The position numbers and the translations under genes were made by a program. Positions 6,904 to 29,738 of a stretch of DNA of 33,349 nucleotides are shown piece by piece. Source of the stretch: a virus. The stretch is taken from the IMG/VR virus record IMGVR_UViG_3300046794_000698, positions 1-33,349 of that record, one strand, 5' to 3'. Every line of letters starts with the position of its first letter. Position 1 is the first letter of the stretch. A model generated the notes under the pieces. The model was not told the DNA's origin. It searched no databases and saw only the letters and a program-made list of their open reading frames with translations.

Positions 6904-8065
6904 ATGCTATGCGGTGCCAGCACATTTGCAGTACGTGGCTTTCGACAATGCTGACAGCCTGACCGCTACCCAGCGCATCCGTTTCCCCCGCAACATTATG
7001 GCCATGCGGCCCGAGTTCGAGTTCGTGGTCATGTTCGCCAGCTTCATCCGTATCACCTTCGGCATACGGGTCAAAGAATACGCGGTTATTCCCGCCCAGC
7101 TCATAATTGCTATTACGTTGTGGCGTGCCATGGTGAACGTGCTTCCCTGACATCTTGGTTCTCTTGGTACCAAGGTCGGTATCGTGGGCCGTACCATTCA
7201 CGCTAATCTTTTCGGCGGGCAAATTTTCCCGGCTGATTGTCACGGTATCACTGCCGCCGGTTTGCCCCACATTGGAGCCGTCCCGCTTGGCAATGCGGAC
7301 TGTTCTACCCTCCCCGGTATATTCCCACTTTGACCACGGCCAGCGGGCGTTAGGGTCGACGTTGGCAAAAAAGAAATGGCTGATGCCAACGGGATTAGAC
7401 AGCTCCCAACTCTCGCGCACAGCGGCAGCAATGGCCTTTTTAATCGCTGCTGGGGTGGCAGCCAGCGCCTCACTATCGCTGTCCGTTTCGCTGCTGAGCT
7501 GCGCAAAACCTTTTTCGGTGAGCGTCGCGTCTGGATGATTACGCGACTTTTCATGGTCTGATAATTGCTCGTCCGTGTAATCCTTTAGCCCTTCCTCCAA
7601 CGCATTAACATCCTCAACCGTTACCAAAATAACGGATGGGTTTACTATCAGCTCCACATCGGCCGTATTGCTGACCACTAACTGCATTCTGATAATTTGA
7701 AATCGCCCCGCCCCCTCAGTCAATAACGGCTTGTAGGTGGGCGGTAAATTGCCAATAGCAATACACGTATCATCAGACGCGTAGACCGCGATTTCATTCA
7801 ACCAATAACCGCCAATTTGCGGCGGCATAATCATTTCCGCCTCAATAATGCGCGCATCACGGTCAGCAATTTCCAACCGATTCAAGGGCGCGCGGTATTG
7901 CTCACCAATGAGGCTGGATTGTTCCGGCATTGGCGTTACTCCCTCGCGATTCCCAGACCCGACTCCCATAGTGACGATATCAAGCGGCACGCCAAGAATG
8001 CCAGCGGCGGCAAGCCTTTCACAGCCTGCCGTTGTTAGAATCGTATTGAACGCCTTGCTTTCCAC
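6902..8065 (-). CDS. gpH-type tail fibre with collar-like, His-rich tip
   Basis: This is a 387-residue fibre. Residues 1-150 match the P2 gpH N-terminal domain (DUF3751) that attaches fibres to the baseplate (FNTILTTAGCERLAAAG, PPQIGGYWLNEIAVYASDD). A short fibre repeat follows at about 170-205 (HPDATLTEKGFAQLSS). The C-terminal part resembles tail-collar tips (GQTGGSDTVTISRENLPA). H309-V-H-H312, H345-D-H347 and H354-G-H356 could bind metal, as in T4 gp37-type needles. The start is GTG with GGGGGG upstream. It is shorter than P2 gpH (669), and no gpG/Tfa chaperone follows. Confidence 0.85.
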   Translation of the reverse strand: MESKAFNTILTTAGCERLAAAGILGVPLDIVTMGVGSGNREGVTPMPEQSSLIGEQYRAPLNRLEIADRDARIIEAEMIMPPQIGGYWLNEIAVYASDDTCIAIGNLPPTYKPLLTEGAGRFQIIRMQLVVSNTADVELIVNPSVILVTVEDVNALEEGLKDYTDEQLSDHEKSRNHPDATLTEKGFAQLSSETDSDSEALAATPAAIKKAIAAAVRESWELSNPVGISHFFFANVDPNARWPWSKWEYTGEGRTVRIAKRDGSNVGQTGGSDTVTISRENLPAEKISVNGTAHDTDLGTKRTKMSGKHVHHGTPQRNSNYELGGNNRVFFDPYAEGDTDEAGEHDHELELGPHGHNVAGETDALGSGQAVSIVESHVLQMCWHRIA

Positions 8066-13330: not shown

Positions 13331-14062
13331 TTATTTATCTTTTCTTCGATACTCTCTCACGTCGTGGAGAAACCCTCCGAGCTGTCTATAGGTGCTAATT
13401 CTCATATGTTCTATCTCATCATCGGTAAATGTTAGGTTATCCAATGGGTCAACATAGCCTTTCTCCCAATCAAGAAATTTATAAATAACAACTAATGATG
13501 GTTCACTTAACGGGGATCTATCACGCGAACTCCACCCACCCATTTTCTCAGCAGACTCGGCATAATATTCAGCAGGAAAATCTTTAACTAACCCTCTAAA
13601 CTTCACACGCCAGTACTGTCTTTCCTCACGATACATATCTTTATGTGAGGTCATCATTATTTTCGCCGCCAGCCTCTCCGAAACCTTTAAAAATCTCGCT
13701 GCTGTTAGCCAAATGTATCTATCATTAGGCGGCCAAACATCACCCTCTTTTGGTTGTAATATTTCGAAAGCTTTCTCCAAATGTTCTTTGGCATCTTTAT
13801 AATAGTCTTCGGAGACATGCCGCCTGATATTATAAACTAGTGTAAGCAGTGTCACGCTAACAGCCAGCAAGATAAAATATTTGGCATACTCCCCAGTGCC
13901 ATCAGAAACAAAAAGGAAGGTAAAGACGAGAGAGAAAAAAACAAGAGCAATTATAATGCCATAAAAAAACAAATTTATAGCTGTGAATGGCTTAGCACTA
14001 TTGAGACCATATAAAAGCAAGTTCCTTATTTTCACACGCAATTTCTTAAAATCAAATTTCAT
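13331..14062 (-). CDS. two-helix membrane protein, cargo gene of unknown function
   Basis: This 243-residue protein has no function I recognise. It has a basic N-terminus, membrane helices at about 30-52 and 60-77, and a soluble charged C-terminal domain that should lie in the cytoplasm. The ATG at 14062 has GGGG 5-6 bases upstream; a TTG at 14089 is less likely. The gene is visibly AT-rich beside V and S, which suggests separate acquisition. In P2 an unrelated small gene (orf30) sits between S and V. Membrane topology plus cargo position suggests exclusion of other phages, but this is inference. Confidence 0.8.
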   Translation of the reverse strand: MKFDFKKLRVKIRNLLLYGLNSAKPFTAINLFFYGIIIALVFFSLVFTFLFVSDGTGEYAKYFILLAVSVTLLTLVYNIRRHVSEDYYKDAKEHLEKAFEILQPKEGDVWPPNDRYIWLTAARFLKVSERLAAKIMMTSHKDMYREERQYWRVKFRGLVKDFPAEYYAESAEKMGGWSSRDRSPLSEPSLVVIYKFLDWEKGYVDPLDNLTFTDDEIEHMRISTYRQLGGFLHDVREYRRKDK

Positions 14063-21845: not shown

Positions 21846-22879
21846 GCAAACGTAATCGCAACCGCAACAAAGGAAAAGAGACTCTGACCGTTGCTGAACC
21901 TGACCAGAAAATGCAGGCGTTTACCTTTGGTGAACCGTCGGCCGTTCTGGATCGCCGCGAGATTCTGGATTACACCGAATGCGTCGGTAACGGCAAATGG
22001 ATTGAACCGCCTATCAGTTTCTCCGGGCTGGCGAAAAGCCTGCGCGCCGCCGTTCACCACAGCTCGCCGATTTATGTCAAGCGCAACATTTTAGCAAGCA
22101 CCTATATCACGCACCCCCTGCTATCACAGCAAGATTTCAGCCGGTTTGTGTTGGATTATTTGGTGTTCGGCAACGCCTTTTTGGAAAAGCGCCAGAGCGT
22201 GAGCGGCAAGCTATTGAAGCTGGAGACCTCCCCGGCCAAATACACCCGGCGCGGTGTTGAACCCGGCGTTTATTGGTTTGTGCAATCGTTCATGGAGCCG
22301 CACCCATTCGCCGCTAACAGCGTTTTCCATTTGCTGGAGCCGGATATCAACCAAGAACTGTATGGGATGCCGGAATATCTGTCGGCGCTTAATTCAGCCT
22401 GGCTGAATGAGTCCGCCACGCTGTTCCGCCGCAAGTATTACCAGAACGGCGCACACGCGGGCTATATCATGTACGTGACGGACGCTGCGCAAAACAGCAC
22501 CGATGTTGAGTCGTTGCGCAGCGCCATGAATAGCTCAAAAGGTATGGGGAACTTTAAAAACCTGTTCTTCTACGCGCCGAACGGAAAGCCCGACGGTATC
22601 AAGATTGTGCCGCTCAGCGAAGTGGCGACAAAGGATGATTTCTTTAACATCAAAAAGGTCAGCGCCGCCGACCTGCTGGACGCCCACCGCATCCCCTATC
22701 AACTGATGGGCGGTAAGCCGGAGACCGTCGGGTCAGTGGGCGACGTGGAAAAGGCCGCAAGGGTGTTTGTCCGCAATGAGCTGACACCGCTACAGCAACG
22801 CATCACTGAGGTGAATGACTGGATCGGCGAGGAGGTCATCCGCTTTAAAAAATACACCCTCGACAACGACGACGAATGA
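21842..22879 (+). CDS. Q: portal protein gpQ
   Basis: This 345-residue protein (P2 gpQ: 344) forms the dodecameric portal through which DNA enters the head. It belongs to the PBSX/P2 portal family (YGMPEYLSALNSAWLNESAT, QLMGGKPETVGSVGDVEKAA). Its ATG overlaps the P stop. A terminator follows 6 bases after the stop. Confidence 0.96.
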   Translation: MSKRNRNRNKGKETLTVAEPDQKMQAFTFGEPSAVLDRREILDYTECVGNGKWIEPPISFSGLAKSLRAAVHHSSPIYVKRNILASTYITHPLLSQQDFSRFVLDYLVFGNAFLEKRQSVSGKLLKLETSPAKYTRRGVEPGVYWFVQSFMEPHPFAANSVFHLLEPDINQELYGMPEYLSALNSAWLNESATLFRRKYYQNGAHAGYIMYVTDAAQNSTDVESLRSAMNSSKGMGNFKNLFFYAPNGKPDGIKIVPLSEVATKDDFFNIKKVSAADLLDAHRIPYQLMGGKPETVGSVGDVEKAARVFVRNELTPLQQRITEVNDWIGEEVIRFKKYTLDNDDE

Positions 22880-22885
22880 TAAACC

Positions 22886-22908
22886 GGCCGCCTGATTGGC
22901 GGCCTTTT
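22886..22908 (+). terminator. intrinsic terminator after Q
   Basis: A perfect 7-bp stem GGCCGCC with loop TGATT and GGCGGCC is followed by four T. It ends the P-Q operon before cos and shields the downstream island. Confidence 0.85.
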
Positions 22909-23049
22909 CATACTCACCCTCAAACGCTCTCAGACGCCCACCACAGCCCACTCCACCGCACACACCCACGAATCAAACCAGAATATCAAAACGCCACCAC
23001 GCCGCGCTGATGCCGTCAATTCTGATAATTAAATACGTGCCTGCGCGCA

Positions 23050-23068
23050 ATGCTATCCCCGCCACGCC
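23050..23068. other. cos: cos site (19-base cohesive end sequence)
   Basis: The sequence ATGCTATCCCCGCCACGCC, read on the other strand as GGCGTGGCGGGGATAGCAT, differs at only a few bases from the 19-base P2 cohesive end as I remember it. It lies downstream of Q, the P2 position. The terminase should make staggered cuts here. The stretch 22910-23353 holds no gene that I can support. Confidence 0.88.
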
Positions 23069-23092
23069 TGCCCGCTTTATGGGTCGGTTTTA

Positions 23093-23210
23093 ATGCAGTT
23101 GCATGAGGCATCCGGGGCCAGAGCAGCACGGACAAAAGACAGTTAGGATAATCCCTTTGACGTCATGCGGTTTCATGCAGCCGCAAGCCCCCCCTCATGT
23201 GGTTACATGA
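23093..23210 (+). repeat. three imperfect 14-base repeats beside cos
   Basis: ATGCAGTTGCATGA (23093-23106), ATGCGGTTTCATGC (23165-23178) and ATGTGGTTACATGA (23197-23210) share ATGnnGTTnCATG. Each is itself a rough inverted repeat around CATG. Their place, 25 to 142 bases from cos, suggests binding sites for the terminase small subunit. Binding by another protein, such as a regulator of the following island, is possible. Confidence 0.6.
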
Positions 23211-23270
23211 ATTACAATGTGTAAACGAATTTCTCTTTCACGGAGGAGCAATATTCATCCATAATAAACC

Positions 23271-23276
23271 TATAAT
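23271..23276 (+). promoter_or_regulatory. possible -10 box for the methyltransferase gene
   Basis: A perfect TATAAT stands 78 bases before the ATG at 23354 in an AT-rich stretch. No clear -35 box is seen at 16-18 bases. The preceding terminator at 22886-22908 makes a local promoter necessary. Confidence 0.4.
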
Positions 23277-23353
23277 TACGTCGCCGAATTGCAGTACTTT
23301 ACTTGCCATGCGACAATCTCAATTCTTTATCAAATTTAGTTACTAGGTGGTGT

Positions 23354-24355
23354 ATGGATAAGCGAATTCTTGAGCATGAAGCAATCAAGCAACTTAGCAA
23401 GAAATCCGTGCGTAAGTTGTTTGGCGTTCATGACATACCGCGAGCCAGTTCGCCATTCCGTTACCCTGGAGGCAAGGACAAACTTGCATCATTTCTTGCT
23501 ATCTTTCTTGCTCATAACAAGTTAGATGGGGCAAGATTTATTGAACCATTTTGTGGGGGTGCGGGAGCATCTCTCTCATTACTTTTTGGTGGTTATGTTA
23601 AAGAAATTCATCTAAATGATAAGAACCATGCCCTATATTGCTTCTGGGAGCAATTACTGAATAATACCGATAATTTATTGGATCTTGTATACCAGAACGT
23701 ACCGAACATTAGCGACTGGCATAAGCAGAAAGAAATTTATCAAAATAGTATTTCAGATGATAAGAAATATTCAAACTTAGAATATGGATTTAGTGCATTC
23801 TATCTAAATCGTTCTAATCGATCTGGTATCCTTAGCGCTGGCCCGATTGGTGGTTTAGATCAGTCAGGGAAGTATAAAATTGATTGTCGATACACTGTTG
23901 GCACTTTAATTAAGAAACTTGAAAAAATTGCCAGCATGAGAGACTCAATTTTTGTTTACAATGAGGATTGTATTGATTTTTTGAAAAGATTTGATAAAAA
24001 AAGTCACTACGATAAAGATTTTGTATATTTAGATCCGCCTTATGTTAAGGAAGGGAAAAACATATACTCTAAAAATTTCTGTTTCGACGACAGTAAACAC
24101 AAAGATCTAAAGGACTATATTTCAGGCTATGCAAATCGCTGGTTAATTTCTTATGATGACCATCCTTTAGTTCATGATCTCTACTCCAAACATGGAGCTA
24201 GAGCTGTTGAGATAAGTTATGTAATGAATCAAGCTAAGGTTGGCAAAGAGTTAATTATTGCAGATTCCAGACTAAGAATGCCAGAATCTCTATTTACCGT
24301 TGATACAGCAAGTCACGTTGAAGACAACTTTATCGATGAAGTGAAAACGGCCTAG
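23354..24355 (+). CDS. D12-class (Dam-like) adenine-N6 DNA methyltransferase
   Basis: This 333-residue protein carries the D12 adenine methyltransferase motifs in order: motif X FRYPGGK (35-41), motif I EPFCGGAGA (64-72, S-adenosylmethionine binding) and motif IV DPPY (227-230, catalysis). The target site cannot be read from sequence. The ATG at 23354 has AGGTGG just upstream; an in-frame TTG at 23303 is less likely. The gene is much more AT-rich than P-Q and lies where P2 carries its exclusion genes. It converges with the two-gene operon on the other strand, 2 bases away. I infer self-protection for that operon; an anti-restriction role is the main alternative. Confidence 0.92.
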   Translation: MDKRILEHEAIKQLSKKSVRKLFGVHDIPRASSPFRYPGGKDKLASFLAIFLAHNKLDGARFIEPFCGGAGASLSLLFGGYVKEIHLNDKNHALYCFWEQLLNNTDNLLDLVYQNVPNISDWHKQKEIYQNSISDDKKYSNLEYGFSAFYLNRSNRSGILSAGPIGGLDQSGKYKIDCRYTVGTLIKKLEKIASMRDSIFVYNEDCIDFLKRFDKKSHYDKDFVYLDPPYVKEGKNIYSKNFCFDDSKHKDLKDYISGYANRWLISYDDHPLVHDLYSKHGARAVEISYVMNQAKVGKELIIADSRLRMPESLFTVDTASHVEDNFIDEVKTA

Positions 24356-24365
24356 TATTAGGCCG
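24344..24365. terminator. hairpin terminator shared by two convergent genes
   Basis: A perfect 7-bp stem CGGCCTA, loop GTAT, TAGGCCG (24348-24365) spans both stop codons of the convergent genes. On the minus strand it is followed by TTTT (24347-24344), giving a terminator for the operon. On the plus strand it is followed by CCTCTTCTT, a weaker tail. One hairpin may therefore serve both units. Confidence 0.7.
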
Positions 24366-25377
24366 CCTCTTCTTGCAAGTTTGCTGTAGTGGATATTACG
24401 TATTGGCAAATACCATCGACCTCTCCCCCACGTTCAATTAGTAACTCTGGATTGTCCCTAAGTAAATCCATGCCTTTCTTAAAACACGTGGGCAATCTCA
24501 ACCGATGCAGAACTGCGCCAAACTCATCAGCAACTAAAGAAACATAATCTCTTTTAAGTGTCTCATCATCACTCTCAAAATCAAAAGGAATAACGATGGC
24601 ATCCATAACTCTATATATACGCTGTGACAACCAATATCTCTGAATTGCCTCTACATCATCCTTAACAGGCTTAGAACGCCAATTATTCCCACTAGCTACC
24701 TGAGCAAAATAGATAATTTTACCCCCTGGTAACCGATCATTTGGGTTGTGAACACTCCAACCAATGACATCTACACCAGCATCCTTATGAGGCCGTGATT
24801 GCAAATAGGTATTTATATCTTCTAACGGCCTAACTTTTCCTTCACCTATCAATTCAACAGCTCGAGTTAATGCGTCATAGAAATCTGAACTATCGGGTCT
24901 TGGCCATCCAAAAGAAACACCATGCCCTTGAACAAAACCGGCCAAACCAATTGTTGCTGCGATCTGAAGCAAATCTCGGTGGGCATTGGTAGGGGCGTCT
25001 AACCCACTGAAAAGTCTTGATTTTGATATATGAGAAAAATACAAGCAATATAAATATATATGTTGATCAACAGATAACTCTTCAACAGTATTTTCTTTTA
25101 GTTCGAGACATTGAGTTTCTTCATCGAAAATGAATGGATAACTTTCACCAAGAATGCTTTCTCTCTGCCTATATTGCTCAAGAGCCCTTTGAATTTCGTT
25201 TTCAACCTCAGCATCTTCCTCACCAATATCATTTGAAGTGAAGGACTCAAGATTTTCTAAAATATTTCTTAATTCTGAAATTCTCAAAGTGAAATAAACA
25301 TTAGACAAGCAAGTCAATTCCATCCAGTCCAATTTAACTTGAATTGGATGGCTTTCAGGATAAGGCAGCAACTGCAT
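24358..25377 (-). CDS. putative PD-(D/E)XK-like nuclease of a candidate defence module
   Basis: I do not recognise this 339-residue protein with certainty. The stretch DAGVDVIGW (199-207) with D203, then IIYFAQVASGNNW with Q226, resembles the core of PD-(D/E)XK-like nucleases, where an Asp after a hydrophobic strand is followed by a (D/E/Q)-x-K strand. The expected Lys is replaced by Ala228, and a Lys about seven residues later could stand in. The N-terminal half is acidic and helical. It has GAGG 8 bases before the ATG and lies 3 bases after the ParB-like gene, so the two form an operon. A non-nuclease role cannot be excluded. Confidence 0.6.
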   Translation of the reverse strand: MQLLPYPESHPIQVKLDWMELTCLSNVYFTLRISELRNILENLESFTSNDIGEEDAEVENEIQRALEQYRQRESILGESYPFIFDEETQCLELKENTVEELSVDQHIYLYCLYFSHISKSRLFSGLDAPTNAHRDLLQIAATIGLAGFVQGHGVSFGWPRPDSSDFYDALTRAVELIGEGKVRPLEDINTYLQSRPHKDAGVDVIGWSVHNPNDRLPGGKIIYFAQVASGNNWRSKPVKDDVEAIQRYWLSQRIYRVMDAIVIPFDFESDDETLKRDYVSLVADEFGAVLHRLRLPTCFKKGMDLLRDNPELLIERGGEVDGICQYVISTTANLQEEAA

Positions 25378-25380
25378 ATT

Positions 25381-26496
25381 TTATCCCTCAACATTTGTCA
25401 ATTGGAACTGAACCTTCAAAACTTTCTTTTTAAACTGTTCTATATAGTTTTTAGTGGTATCGTCCAATGATTCAGTTCGGTCTAATACAGATGAAATCGT
25501 GTCCAATTGTTTATTTATTTCTAAGAAAGCATCTTTTATGTGCTGTAAAGGGTCTCCCGCCTGCTTATACAGTTCAGAAAGGCTTTCTACACCAGATTTA
25601 AATGCTTCATATGATGCTTCATTCGCGAGCACTTCACCAAAATATTTTAAGTCAGGATTCTGAGATGAAATTAGCGATGCTCTTTTGTCTTTTTTATAAC
25701 CATACAAGCCTGTTAAAACATCCTTCAACTTACCTAGATTATCTAGTGGGACCGGGTTATCACTAAGAGTTATATTCCAGTCTCTTTCTAAACCTAAAAA
25801 ATCCTTATACTCAGATCTATTTAATGCGGTATATAGGTGAGAGAATGAGAATTTTGGTGATACTCTATCGCTGTGAATATCATAAATCTCTTGGTTCTTA
25901 GCTTGCTCCAGAACAAACATTGCACTAACAATCGAACGTACCGTATTATTACTGTCACCAAGTTTCTTGGTAATATCATCAATTGTTAGACCTTGGTCTC
26001 TTTCACTAATAAACCATTTGTATGCAAATTGTGCCTTCGCAAATGAATCCCACTTATGAGGTCCATTGACATGTTTAAAACCAATAAAAGCACGAGCTTC
26101 TGACTCATTATTCACCAGATAGACCGCTATTTCTTTCAAACTCTTTGTGACTTTTTCGGAAAGAGTTTTAGGAACAACCACCCGGCATTTTTGTGCCAAG
26201 CCAGATTCTGTAAGAAGCTTTATCGCAGCTAGACGCCTATTTCCTTCAAGCACAACATATTTATCACCCCTTTTCATTACTATTAGAGGTTCAATAGACA
26301 TATATCCATTTTCAGATATAGACTTTATTAACTCATCAAGATCAGCACTATCTGATAACGCCTTAACTAGCTCGTGAGGATCAGCATTATCATTAAAGCT
26401 TTTTCCGTTGAATAGTCTAGGGTTCCTAGCGTCCAAAATTAACGCTTCAGGGGAAATTTTATCTGTCACATGAGGGTGTAAGATAGGTAGAGTCAT
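25381..26496 (-). CDS. ParB/Srx-fold DNA-binding protein
   Basis: This 371-residue protein has an N-terminal ParB-like domain: a first motif DARNPRLF (22-29) and the nucleotide-binding loop LEGNRRLAA with G85-N-R-R88. A helix-turn-helix region follows (LTIDDITKKLGDSNNTVRS). The C-terminal part has coiled-coil character (ISSVLDRTESLDDTTKNYIE). ParB-like proteins of this kind occur beside methyltransferases and nucleases in mobile DNA as well as in partition. No ParA is present, so partition is unlikely. The ATG at 26496 is preferred to a TTG at 26508; neither has a strong ribosome binding site. Confidence 0.85.
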   Translation of the reverse strand: MTLPILHPHVTDKISPEALILDARNPRLFNGKSFNDNADPHELVKALSDSADLDELIKSISENGYMSIEPLIVMKRGDKYVVLEGNRRLAAIKLLTESGLAQKCRVVVPKTLSEKVTKSLKEIAVYLVNNESEARAFIGFKHVNGPHKWDSFAKAQFAYKWFISERDQGLTIDDITKKLGDSNNTVRSIVSAMFVLEQAKNQEIYDIHSDRVSPKFSFSHLYTALNRSEYKDFLGLERDWNITLSDNPVPLDNLGKLKDVLTGLYGYKKDKRASLISSQNPDLKYFGEVLANEASYEAFKSGVESLSELYKQAGDPLQHIKDAFLEINKQLDTISSVLDRTESLDDTTKNYIEQFKKKVLKVQFQLTNVEG

Positions 26497-26554
26497 AGCA
26501 CCAACCAAATCAGCACAAAAGTATGATCATTTTAATTTTTTTTCTCCCTAATGC

Positions 26555-26667: not shown

Positions 26668-28911
26668 CTAATCACAGTTTTTTTCCAGACTCGTCAACTG
26701 AAAACCTAACCACTCATTAGGTACCGTATATAGGAATGATTTATCTCCGATTATCACCGTTGCCCCTCTAACCAATGCTTTCAGTTCCCAGAGCTCTGCT
26801 GTAGTACCCTGTTGTGCCAACTCAAGCCTAATTTGCGGAATTCTCGCCCGTTCTGCCGGTGTCAGACGCGCCGATGGCGCATCATTTCGGGATTTCTTAC
26901 GATTCCGGGCGATTTCTTGGTGGTTAGCCTTCGGTGACTGCTGTCTTAGAGCGTCTCTCATCGTCTTGGCGACGTCGGCATCATCCCAGCTAACATCCCC
27001 GCTCTCAATCAAATCCATCACCGCCGTGAAATACTCAGGCGTTGCTACCTGCATATCTGGATCAGGTTCTCGCTGAACCTCCCCACAGTTATTGACAGGA
27101 CTCCGAGGCGCGCCAGAGGCGCTTTTTAAAGTCAAAGGATTAACATCAACGTCAACTGCCTTGCGGACGATGCGCCATTCTGTTGACCGGGTTTCGTGGA
27201 TATGGCCCGCGCCAAGGTGCGGCGCAAAAATGCCGACAACCTTTTGCACCTCTTCGTCATACGCGTTCGGCTCATCAGCCACCTTGCGGGCCACACGAAC
27301 GGTCTGCACATCACGCGGGACATTTGCGCCACCCTGCCCGGCCATATAGGCGGCGAAGTTTCCGGCGCTGGCCGCTTCACGCACGGCTTCGACTCGTTCA
27401 TCAAAGGAATCAGCCAGACTGATATGACGAAGGCAGGCGGCGCGGCATTCACGGTAAGCGCCCATGGTGGGAATTCCGATGGGTTTAAACTGAGGGATGC
27501 GCCATGTTGACGCCCATGAGGTCACCGCCGCAGCCATATCGCGCAGCGGCTTGCCGGTGTCGTGGTCAATCTGGCCATCGAGCGCATAACCGTCGATATT
27601 CTTGGCGATGTATTTTGCGATATACCCCGCCGCACCGCCCTTGTTCATGTGCTTGGCTTCAAACCGGTTCTTTGCCGCGCCTCGCTCGTCGCCGTCCTCT
27701 TTCAAGGCATAGCGGCGCATGATATCGATGACGTCCTGACGCTGCTTACGCTGGCAAAAAAGCATCATATGCCAGTGCGGCGTACCGTCATGGTGCGGCT
27801 CAACGACACGCATACCGTAGACACTCAGGCGATTATCTTTAAATGCGGTGCGCATTTTTTGCCAGATACTAACAAGATAACGCTGGCCGTCTTTCGGTGA
27901 AAAAGCCTCTAAATCCCAGTTGTGATTAAACTGGACTTTCTCGGGCCCCTCTTTGCCAACGACGCGGGTCGGGTGATATTTCGACGGAGTGGTGATGGTG
28001 ATAAACATGCCGACATGCTTCTCGCTAGCGGCATATTTTTCTATTCCGGCGATGGTGCTCATCAGCTCCATGCGACGGATTTCCGGGTTAGATATGCTTG
28101 CCATCACTTTATCAATCAGGTCAACGCGCTCACCGGTAGCAACGTTCTCCAGCTCACACCCTTTCAGATAGTCCATATTTGCGAGTCGCCGGGCCTGCAC
28201 CTCACGGATAGCCTGCTTACTCGCGTAAGGGTGTTTTTTTAGGTTCACTTCACCGGCCGCAATGAGCAACGCCTCACGCCAGCGCGTGCGCTGGGCTTTC
28301 AACTGGCGCTCCCACCACTCGGAGTTAACAAGGCGTGACAAACTGGCAACCGCTGATGTAGCGTCCAGCCTACCTTTGAGGTATTTGCGCCAGTGCATCG
28401 GAGTAATGTTAAACGCCCGTGCCATAAGCGCGATACGTCCATAGAATTCAGCCTGAACACTGTCGCTAATTAGTTGTGAATTATCCCCGTTATTTTCAGC
28501 GATAAACTCCTCGCAATAGCGGTCATAATTTTGCAGCAATTGACCGGCAACGCGGTCAGCAAAGCGGCGTAACTCCTTGTCATCCATCCCCGGCAGACTC
28601 GCATAGTTGTCTACCTCCGCCATAAAGCACGGCGACGCGTTAAGGTTCATCGCATTCTTTTCGTTAACGACTTCGATACGCGGCCAGATGCGACGTTGGA
28701 ACTGGAGCACCAGCCATTTATTAGCGGTGTGGATCCCCTGCTCTTTCAGTAAATAGGTATGGCGGCCAAGAAAAATAAGGCTGAGGAAATGCGGCAAGGA
28801 TTGGATATTACGCAAAACAGCTTGCCCCTGAGCGTGTTGCTCACGGGTAAGCGGTCTTTCTTTGCCAATGGCAAGACGTGGTTCATTCCATGGGTAAGCG
28901 TAACCGGTCAT
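26668..28911 (-). CDS. A: rolling-circle replication initiator gpA
   Basis: This 747-residue protein (P2 gpA: 761) nicks the phage origin and starts rolling-circle replication. It has an HUH motif PHWHMM at about 378-380 and the two catalytic tyrosines in YIAKY (about 430 and 434), the P2 spacing. I chose the ATG at 28911 (MTGYAYPWNEPRLAIGKER) because it overlaps the upstream stop as ATGA and has GGAG upstream; a longer frame begins at 28959. In P2 the origin lies within A; I did not locate it here. Confidence 0.95.
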   Translation of the reverse strand: MTGYAYPWNEPRLAIGKERPLTREQHAQGQAVLRNIQSLPHFLSLIFLGRHTYLLKEQGIHTANKWLVLQFQRRIWPRIEVVNEKNAMNLNASPCFMAEVDNYASLPGMDDKELRRFADRVAGQLLQNYDRYCEEFIAENNGDNSQLISDSVQAEFYGRIALMARAFNITPMHWRKYLKGRLDATSAVASLSRLVNSEWWERQLKAQRTRWREALLIAAGEVNLKKHPYASKQAIREVQARRLANMDYLKGCELENVATGERVDLIDKVMASISNPEIRRMELMSTIAGIEKYAASEKHVGMFITITTPSKYHPTRVVGKEGPEKVQFNHNWDLEAFSPKDGQRYLVSIWQKMRTAFKDNRLSVYGMRVVEPHHDGTPHWHMMLFCQRKQRQDVIDIMRRYALKEDGDERGAAKNRFEAKHMNKGGAAGYIAKYIAKNIDGYALDGQIDHDTGKPLRDMAAAVTSWASTWRIPQFKPIGIPTMGAYRECRAACLRHISLADSFDERVEAVREAASAGNFAAYMAGQGGANVPRDVQTVRVARKVADEPNAYDEEVQKVVGIFAPHLGAGHIHETRSTEWRIVRKAVDVDVNPLTLKSASGAPRSPVNNCGEVQREPDPDMQVATPEYFTAVMDLIESGDVSWDDADVAKTMRDALRQQSPKANHQEIARNRKKSRNDAPSARLTPAERARIPQIRLELAQQGTTAELWELKALVRGATVIIGDKSFLYTVPNEWLGFQLTSLEKNCD

Positions 28912-29738
28912 GCTATGGCTAGCTCCAGTTGCGATGGCGCGTAACCTTTCGATGACCACTCAGCAATTGACGGGGGATATACAGACTCGATAGAACCTTT
29001 CAGAATTGCACAGCGGGTTTTCAAAATGACCGCTTTTAGTTCTCTTTCAGAAAGCTTTTTAGAGTAGTCAGCCTCACTGATTGCCCTGGTAAGCTCAGGG
29101 TATTTGCTATGAAACTTAGGCACATTACAGGCAAGATTTGTGCTGTCAGCAGTTGCCAGGGGGTAATTTCCAAGTATGCGCCCATCCAGCATCCGCAACC
29201 CGTGAACGCTGGTCTTAAAATTGTGCTTAAGGTAGATAGTCTCGAAGGCATCCTGCATCCTGCGATGCCAGCGTTCGGTTCTGATTGCTGCAAACTCGCC
29301 TGAAGATCCAAAACAAACGCGAGGCCACTCACGACATAACTCAACCAGACGATGTAATGATTCATGAAGGTGCCAAACAGGTGTCGCTTTATCTCTAAAA
29401 CAACGTGGCAATGCCGAAATTAGGATATCGTTATCTTTCTCTCCCCCCTCAACTACATCTGGAATAACAAAAAATGTCAGTTTTGGATGGTGGTAGTGGG
29501 GAATGAGCCATTGATAAAATTGCTGCCAGTCTATGGCGAGGCCGCGTTTCCATGCGGAAAAAGCCCCGTTATCGATAGCCACAGAAAGCGCTAATTTAAT
29601 CGACGCTGCGAGCTGGTCAGGGCGAGCATATGACACAAACGCCCCAGCACCCGCCACCGCAATTCGATGAACGCCTCCCGCGTCACCCCATACTGGAGTC
29701 CCGTGGTAATGAACGACTTTCTCCACGACCGGCAGCAC
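28908..29738 (-). CDS. TGT/DpdA-like protein (possible DNA guanine transglycosylase)
   Basis: This 276-residue protein has spaced motifs of the tRNA-guanine transglycosylase barrel: DNGAF (D56), an IPDVV strand (D94), PVWH, GSSGE (144-148), HGLRML and TADSTN with D198. The DNGAF and ADST pair resembles the two catalytic aspartates of TGT and of the phage DpdA enzymes that put 7-deazaguanines into DNA. The usual TGT zinc cysteine cluster is not evident. The start is GTG with AGGGA upstream. It lies between the DUF5405 gene and A, coupled to A by ATGA. No preQ0 synthesis gene is in the window. The assignment comes from motif reading only. Confidence 0.55.
   Translation of the reverse strand: MLPVVEKVVHYHGTPVWGDAGGVHRIAVAGAGAFVSYARPDQLAASIKLALSVAIDNGAFSAWKRGLAIDWQQFYQWLIPHYHHPKLTFFVIPDVVEGGEKDNDILISALPRCFRDKATPVWHLHESLHRLVELCREWPRVCFGSSGEFAAIRTERWHRRMQDAFETIYLKHNFKTSVHGLRMLDGRILGNYPLATADSTNLACNVPKFHSKYPELTRAISEADYSKKLSERELKAVILKTRCAILKGSIESVYPPSIAEWSSKGYAPSQLELAIA

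Follow-up and report, generated by a model that had tools for sequence, protein, structure and literature searches.

The question raised by this locus is what a three-gene, AT-rich island encodes in a P2-like virus, and whether it belongs to any described system. The virus is IMG/VR record IMGVR_UViG_3300046794_000698, and the whole record of 33,349 bases is the stretch of DNA analysed here (the window). In the island, a D12 methyltransferase gene on the plus strand is convergent with a minus-strand tandem pair, consisting of a ParB-like gene and a gene that we call ORF2. A first-pass annotation, made from the letters alone, had proposed that these genes are an undescribed restriction-modification (R-M) or defence module. 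Using sequence, structure prediction and comparative genomics, we consider it likely that they form a three-gene defence cassette of R-M type carried by the prophage, in which the methyltransferase would protect, and the ParB-like protein and ORF2 would restrict. Our best reading is that the R-M architecture is new and sister to the PD-lambda-5 system, with a nucleoside triphosphate (NTP)-binding ParB-like sensor that licenses a nuclease.

We collected loci independently by ORF2 and by ParB searches, with neighbouring genes playing no part in locus finding, and counted pairs as distinct when ParB identity was <95%. The ParB-like gene has ORF2 as its direct neighbour in 144 of the 151 loci (103 distinct pairs); the two are spaced by -124 to +19 nt, such that they mostly overlap or almost do so. 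ORF2 is next to the ParB-like gene in 76 of the 79 loci found with the ParB profile; two of the exceptions are at a contig edge (L019 and L144) and one is not (L105). The sole ORF2 locus that lacks a ParB-like gene (L075) starts at a contig edge. At a Brevundimonas locus (L053:4804-6924), the two are fused into a single protein of 707 aa. We then searched about 1,150 further genomes (Pseudomonadota, Alpha- and Gammaproteobacteria; draws partly overlapping), of which ~1% carry ORF2. All ten new ORF2 loci have a ParB-like gene directly upstream and a methyltransferase gene adjacent (5 D12, 2 N6_N4 and 3 C5, the last being C5-cytosine methyltransferases). We conclude that the pairing of the ParB-like gene with ORF2 is obligate.

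The association of the pair with DNA modification genes is almost as strict. Six of the 103 distinct pairs run off their contig, leaving 97 with enough flanking sequence to be scored. A modification gene lies within 1.2 kb of the pair in 96 of these: 42 C5, 37 D12 (including L035, L106 and the frameshifted L037), 13 N6_N4 and four Dnd (including L059, assigned by clade and DptH). Pfam searches of 88 neighbouring proteins identified 34 D12, 30 C5 and 11 N6_N4 methyltransferases. At the exception, L026, a Z1 gene and a second pair lie next to a C5 gene that is ~4.7 kb away. The pair and the modification gene are convergent in 59 of 89 loci for which orientation was called, as they are in the window. 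Linkage of the pair to a modification gene is thus near-universal, and the trio for which the first-pass annotation had suggested a neighbourhood analysis strongly co-occurs elsewhere, in distinct pairs (96/97) and in new loci (10/10) alike. The phosphorothioate (PT) defence loci follow the same arrangement: at L056-L058 the pair is convergent with dndBCD (DndB, DndC, DndD), just as it is with methyltransferases elsewhere, and is downstream of dptH where checked. DptH was found in the checked Dnd-type loci L056, L058 and L059, the available stretch of L059 stopping before any dnd genes.

To relate pair lineage to partner, we built a maximum-likelihood tree of the 97 concatenated pairs by a quick method; some branches are long (L130), and four rows are unlabelled. 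The tree divides into two sides, with 99% support for each in the SH-like approximate likelihood-ratio test (SH-aLRT): one has 47 rows, whose partners are C5 enzymes or Dnd, and the other has 50, whose partners are D12 or N6_N4 enzymes. The modification label changes 8 times on this tree, as compared with 41 times when shuffled. Within the second, amino-methylation side, D12 and N6_N4 have replaced one another at least five times, and pair distances correlate with methyltransferase distances within each methyltransferase class. Hence, pair lineage is linked to modification chemistry, and the split, the interchange of D12 and N6_N4, and the correlated distances together suggest that the restriction half goes with a type of mark rather than with a particular enzyme. 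The mark is not certain to be adenine methylation for N6_N4 partners, since these enzymes may also make N4-methylcytosine. Because the same pair occurs with four kinds of modification, it looks like a general-purpose, undescribed "restriction" half.

A few loci depart from the common arrangement. L037 was considered as a locus with no methyltransferase and was rejected as such, since a frameshifted D12 gene is convergent with the pair there (6975-7715; about 39-44% identity over 250 aa). The ParB-like gene and ORF2 are open at this locus, consistent with either a sequencing error or a lost methyltransferase, the latter being hard on a strict R-M model. In actinobacterial loci (L052, L054, L055, L060 and L062-L065), a gene for a Z1-domain ATPase either overlaps parB at its start or directly adjoins it there, and a C5 gene is nearby, giving a four-gene version. 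On the phage contig of L026 (4779-9618), two ParB-ORF2 pairs face each other, with the Z1 and C5 genes more distant.

The methyltransferase matches Pfam PF02086 (E 1.4e-21), in agreement with the earlier call of a D12 adenine methyltransferase, and motif X (FRYPGGK), motif I (FIEPFCGGAG) and the catalytic DPPY are intact in its translation. The ParB-like protein, assigned to a PHROG of unknown function (phrog_3694), comprises a ParB/Srx NTP-binding N-domain (residues 10-147), a ParB-type helix-turn-helix (HTH) region (148-298) and C-terminal helices; its start may alternatively be a TTG at 26508, 12 bases upstream. The GNRR nucleotide-binding loop noticed earlier is part of an EGNRR sequence at residues 84-88, of which E84, G85, N86 and R88 are invariant in 79 of 79 homologues. 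A search of PDB sequences gave only weak ParB/Spo0J matches, and the AlphaFold2 model (pLDDT, the predicted confidence score, 92.5) has the full ParB domain order, with neighbours that include KorB (Foldseek E 1e-6, VIA Z 10.4), Myxococcus xanthus ParB bound to CTPgammaS (Z 10.2), Noc and PadC. The ParB-like protein is thus modelled as a full ParB NTP-clamp fold, which may use a nucleotide and behave as a clamp.

ORF2 is the candidate nuclease. The PD-(D/E)XK-like motif reported in the first-pass annotation can be read as D199-x-G201-x-D203...Q226...W233...K236, within a predicted core (about residues 100-310) that follows a winged-helix-like N-terminus (about 8-120). ORF2 falls in a PHROG of unknown function (phrog_14650, E 1e-118); searches with it gave nothing in Pfam or NCBIfam, nothing significant in PADLOC and no match among PDB sequences, and its 77 relatives have no Pfam family and only three, chance-level, PADLOC matches. 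A tblastn search of phage records with ORF2 gave no match at 1e-2, and annotated relatives were found via the ParB match instead. Structure prediction, suggested earlier as a check, gave a confident AlphaFold2 model (pLDDT 94) with a nuclease-type fold: its VIA-align neighbours are MspJI, FokI, NgoMIV, VC1899, Card1, Shedu, BspD6I, AspBHI and Can2 (Z 4.8-6.3, modest alone), and restriction or CRISPR nucleases of the PD-(D/E)XK type make up almost all of the top 18 rows. Residues 1-120 look like the winged helices of CapW and PafBC. Conservation of the putative active site is stronger support than these fold matches: among 78 homologues, D203 is present in 78 and Q226 in 77, and all have a lysine at position 228 or 236. 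The classical QxK arrangement (QCK, with K228) occurs in four homologues (L101, L102, L104 and L107), three of which have lost K236; elsewhere the sequence is QxAS and the lysine is K236. Lysine migration is known in the PD-(D/E)XK superfamily. ORF2 is modelled as a PD-(D/E)XK-type fold with a conserved D...Q...K site and a relocated lysine, and is predicted to be a nuclease. All three genes are under purifying selection, with nonsynonymous divergence (dN) of 0.08-0.29 at saturated synonymous divergence (dS was not estimable in 14 of 15 comparisons and was 2.4 in the remaining one). The low dN at saturated dS, and retention of D203, Q226 and lysine at 228 or 236 across the 78 diverse homologues, argue that the reading frames and motifs are not chance.

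The first-pass annotation had known of no named system that these genes match, and this claim is not supported. PADLOC identifies the methyltransferase as PD-Lambda-5_B (PDLC04018, E 9.9e-96, residues 31-315) and the N-domain of the ParB-like protein as PD-Lambda-5_A (PDLC03998, E 9.5e-21, residues 12-175 only), and both minus-strand proteins were already in PHROGs. What stands of the proposed undescribed module is a trio of R-M or defence type at a known hotspot. PD-lambda-5 protects E. coli against many phages (Vassallo et al. 2022, PMC9519451). The cassette shares with it a D12 methyltransferase subfamily (46.5% identity to the methyltransferase of Marinobacter phage AS1, in which both the A and the B protein are PD-Lambda-5 matches), a ParB N-domain and HTH region of about 220 aa with EGNRR and H...W motifs, and a place among prophage cargo. 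However, the ParB-like protein here has 371 aa and lacks the C-terminus of PD-lambda-5_A, which has about 440-590 aa; the cassette has an additional gene, ORF2, unrelated to that C-terminus; its three genes include a convergent methyltransferase, whereas PD-lambda-5 is a co-directional A-B pair; and relatives of this cassette pair with C5, N6_N4 and Dnd partners.

The cassette might nonetheless be a strict PD-lambda-5 system that has been split into more genes and works by the R-M-plus-abortive-infection scheme proposed for PD-lambda-5, which we regard as improbable. Consistent with such a split, PD-Lambda-5_B matches the methyltransferase at E 1e-95, PD-Lambda-5_A models are matched by 79 of 79 ParB homologues, and a long PD-lambda-5_A-like protein adjoins the ParB-ORF2 pair in two composite loci that have a single D12 methyltransferase in sight (L032:2336-7838 and L049:903-5427). 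PD-lambda-5_A is itself split into two genes in Vibrio phage ValB1MD-2 (L027:3132-4681), at the boundary of the ParB domain and the C-terminal effector. However, the common sequence ends after about 220 residues. PD-Lambda-5_A matches in the family cover the first 160-240 residues and stop at about position 130-235 of models of 428-503 positions, whereas in six loci of the drawn genomes they extend as far as position 461-465 (four unbroken and two as second halves of split matches). An hhalign comparison of nine PD-lambda-5_A-like proteins with the ParB family gave 219 aligned columns (E 1e-35), where the likeness ends, and a profile comparison of the PD-lambda-5_A C-terminus with ORF2 gave no similarity (E 0.93). 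Moreover, the canonical system, as seen in six of the loci read out from the drawn proteobacterial genomes (L167-L171 and L175), has an A gene (438-506 aa) followed by a D12 gene on the same strand, while the pair here also serves C5, N6_N4 and Dnd partners; and the composite loci carry both, so that one is not a simple replacement for the other. A PD-lambda-5_A query of viral contigs gave no pattern match. Because the alignment stops at 219 columns, ORF2 is unmatched and composite loci hold both, we suggest that the cassette and PD-lambda-5 are sisters, with a common front end and methyltransferase type and different effectors. What is new is how the parts are put together: ORF2 is a candidate nuclease encoded by its own gene, the C-terminus of PD-lambda-5_A is absent, and the modification genes can stand in for one another. 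If our reading is right, part of the PD-Lambda-5_A model matches in genomes may be the ParB-ORF2 system instead. At L032, a protein with Mrr_N and T5orf172 (GIY-YIG-like) domains lies between the PD-lambda-5_A-like protein and the pair.

In the mechanism that we propose, the D12 methyltransferase would methylate adenines within a short sequence, in the DNA of host and prophage alike. The ParB-like protein, with its nucleotide-binding fold and HTH region, would inspect DNA, with NTP-dependent loading or retention at unmarked sites, and would recruit or activate ORF2, which as a PD-(D/E)XK-type nuclease would cut incoming phage DNA. Both a target site and an anti-phage effect are predicted by this scheme. 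Like a Type II R-M system, the cassette has separate genes for a methyltransferase and a candidate nuclease, inherited as a unit, but it has a third subunit with a ParB-like nucleotide-binding fold, and the pair partners methyltransferases of unrelated classes. Like canonical ParB, Noc and KorB CTPase clamps, the ParB-like protein has an N-domain and HTH region in the same modelled order, but its loop is GNRR rather than GERR, and its partners are a nuclease candidate and a methyltransferase. PHROGs state no link between phrog_3694 and phrog_14650, or of either to a methyltransferase. We found no description of the pair in a literature search of the main text of open-licence papers, and the cassette may appear, as uncharacterised, in the tables of hotspots of PMC9519451 or PMC9122126.

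A ParB/Srx-fold NTP-binding domain works together with a nuclease in the modification-linked defence systems GmrSD, BrxU, SspE and DndI (PMC10952713, PMC11662687), and the cassette likewise has such a domain alongside a candidate nuclease. Those systems have DUF262 (with DGQQR) and an HNH nuclease of DUF1524, whereas here a GNRR ParB domain with HTH is accompanied by a PD-(D/E)XK-like protein encoded separately, and Pfam searches of the window proteins and ORF2 homologues matched neither DUF262 nor DUF1524. An alternative is that the pair, instead of cutting unmodified DNA, is a modification-dependent effector (type IV-like or PT-sensing in the manner of SspE, DndI or GmrSD), to which its own mark would signal self or foreign marks would serve as the trigger. 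ParB-superfamily NTPase domains sense modified DNA in SspE, DndI and GmrSD (PMC11662687, PMC10952713), the lineage of the pair follows the type of modified base, Dnd loci included, and the nearest ORF2 folds include the modification-dependent enzymes MspJI and AspBHI. We nonetheless think this explanation unlikely: under a simple type IV scheme the co-encoded methyltransferase would turn the host into a target, and neither the three window proteins nor the ORF2 homologues have an SRA-, DUF262- or DUF1524-type match.

Several observations weigh against the R-M reading that we prefer. Co-occurrence is evidence of functional coupling but does not by itself show restriction. All Dnd cases fall in a single clade of four loci, which also have DptH where checked, and L056 has a PT-dependent (phosphorothioated-DNA-binding) endonuclease between dptH and the pair. 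For ORF2 the structural support is moderate, since VIA Z is at most 6.3 and the tool cautions that Z <8 may reflect a common arrangement; Foldseek matches of ORF2 in the PDB are not significant (best E 0.16), its best match in the viral library is an Mrr-domain protein at E 8e-3, and the lysine is off the canonical position in most members. For the ParB-like protein, the position that we take by eye to be equivalent to the ENxQR motif of canonical ParB proteins is [FY][KR]H[VI][NT]G in the family (FKHVNG in the window), with H142 and G145 invariant. The nucleotide may therefore not be CTP, and use of CTP by this protein is uncertain. ParB folds that bind ATP or GTP are known (PMC12704722).

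A more specific version of the R-M reading, which we put forward tentatively, is a clamp-type system: an NTP-gated (possibly CTP-gated) ParB-like clamp at unmodified sites would license an orphan PD-(D/E)XK nuclease, as a general restriction half plugged onto exocyclic-amine methylation (by two unrelated methyltransferase folds), C5-cytosine methylation and phosphorothioation, and the lineages of the clamp would be adapted to the modification type. The readings considered here overlap, and our confidence in them need not sum to one. If the R-M reading is correct, it would add a restriction architecture in which a ParB-type nucleotide-binding fold, known so far mainly from chromosome segregation, acts as a DNA-reading switch, and one restriction half would serve several unrelated DNA modifications. 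The split of the tree by modification type makes mark reading by the restriction complex directly testable, via clade comparison or swaps.

The location of the cassette is also informative. The terminase/portal region of the phage is ~77% identical at the nucleotide level to P2-like phages of E. coli, Salmonella and Klebsiella. The three reading frames lie where the first-pass annotation had put them, in an island of 33-42% G+C content (500-base windows, 23.5-27 kb) as compared with about 50-62% across most of the phage. Gene order in the window is portal (+), presumed cos region, cassette and gpA (-), and in P2 it is gpA, orf91, tin, old and cosR; by gene order, the cassette is at the homologue of the P2 tin/old site, as the annotation had claimed. 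This place is a published defence hotspot (PMC9519451, PMC9122126). Phages Wphi, P2 SIAC10 and 12474III have a pair that is 19-24% identical at the same P2 site, in reversed orientation and with a C5 methyltransferase; two distant versions of this cassette type were thus acquired at one P2 hotspot. A version with C5 adjoins tail gene D in Pseudomonas phage D14A. A megablast search of 5,426 E. coli genomes did not detect the island.

The genes could instead serve phage housekeeping: the methyltransferase would shield phage DNA against restriction by the host, and partitioning or regulation would fall to the ParB-like protein and ORF2. Lone methyltransferases are frequent in phages, and ParB homologues partition plasmid-prophages. 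Anti-defence or phage-host roles have been suggested for prophage ParB-methyltransferase fusions (PMC12704722). However, besides phages, bacterial chromosomes and one plasmid record (Mesorhizobium) carry the pair; it forms part of the cargo of a hypervariable defence site, where Wphi-type phages have it the other way round; and partitioning would not be expected to involve a conserved active site of nuclease type. We consider a housekeeping role very improbable.

Features of the island and its junctions, with positions in the window
Feature	Position	Strand	Basis
Left junction: end of portal gene Q and presumed cos region (cos not located by sequence)	22877..23353		P2-like portal/terminase ~77% nt; P2 order
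D12-class (Dam-type) N6-adenine DNA methyltransferase, 333 aa; predicted modification (self-protection) subunit	23354..24355	+	Pfam, PADLOC, motifs
Hairpin CGGCCTAGTATTAGGCCG, candidate shared terminator over both stops of the convergent genes	24348..24365		Pattern match only
ORF2, candidate restriction nuclease, 339 aa	24358..25377	-	phrog_14650, AlphaFold2 model, VIA-align, residue counts
ParB-like protein, 371 aa, predicted sensor/clamp	25381..26496	-	PADLOC PD-Lambda-5_A, AlphaFold2, Foldseek, VIA
Right junction: replication gene A (gpA)	26668..28959	-	P2-like gpA, 72-75% nt across ~40% of query

The stop codons of the methyltransferase gene and ORF2 are separated by 2 bp and lie within a common 18-nt hairpin. 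A search of Rfam gave no match within the island, and promoter-pattern matches in the island are rarer than in shuffled sequence and were not used as evidence. Elsewhere in the window, an AT-rich (38% G+C) orphan gene at 13334-14062 on the minus strand encodes a protein of ~241 aa with hydrophobic segments, amid GC-rich structural genes. It has no Pfam or PHROG match, and may represent cargo inserted at a second variable site of P2.

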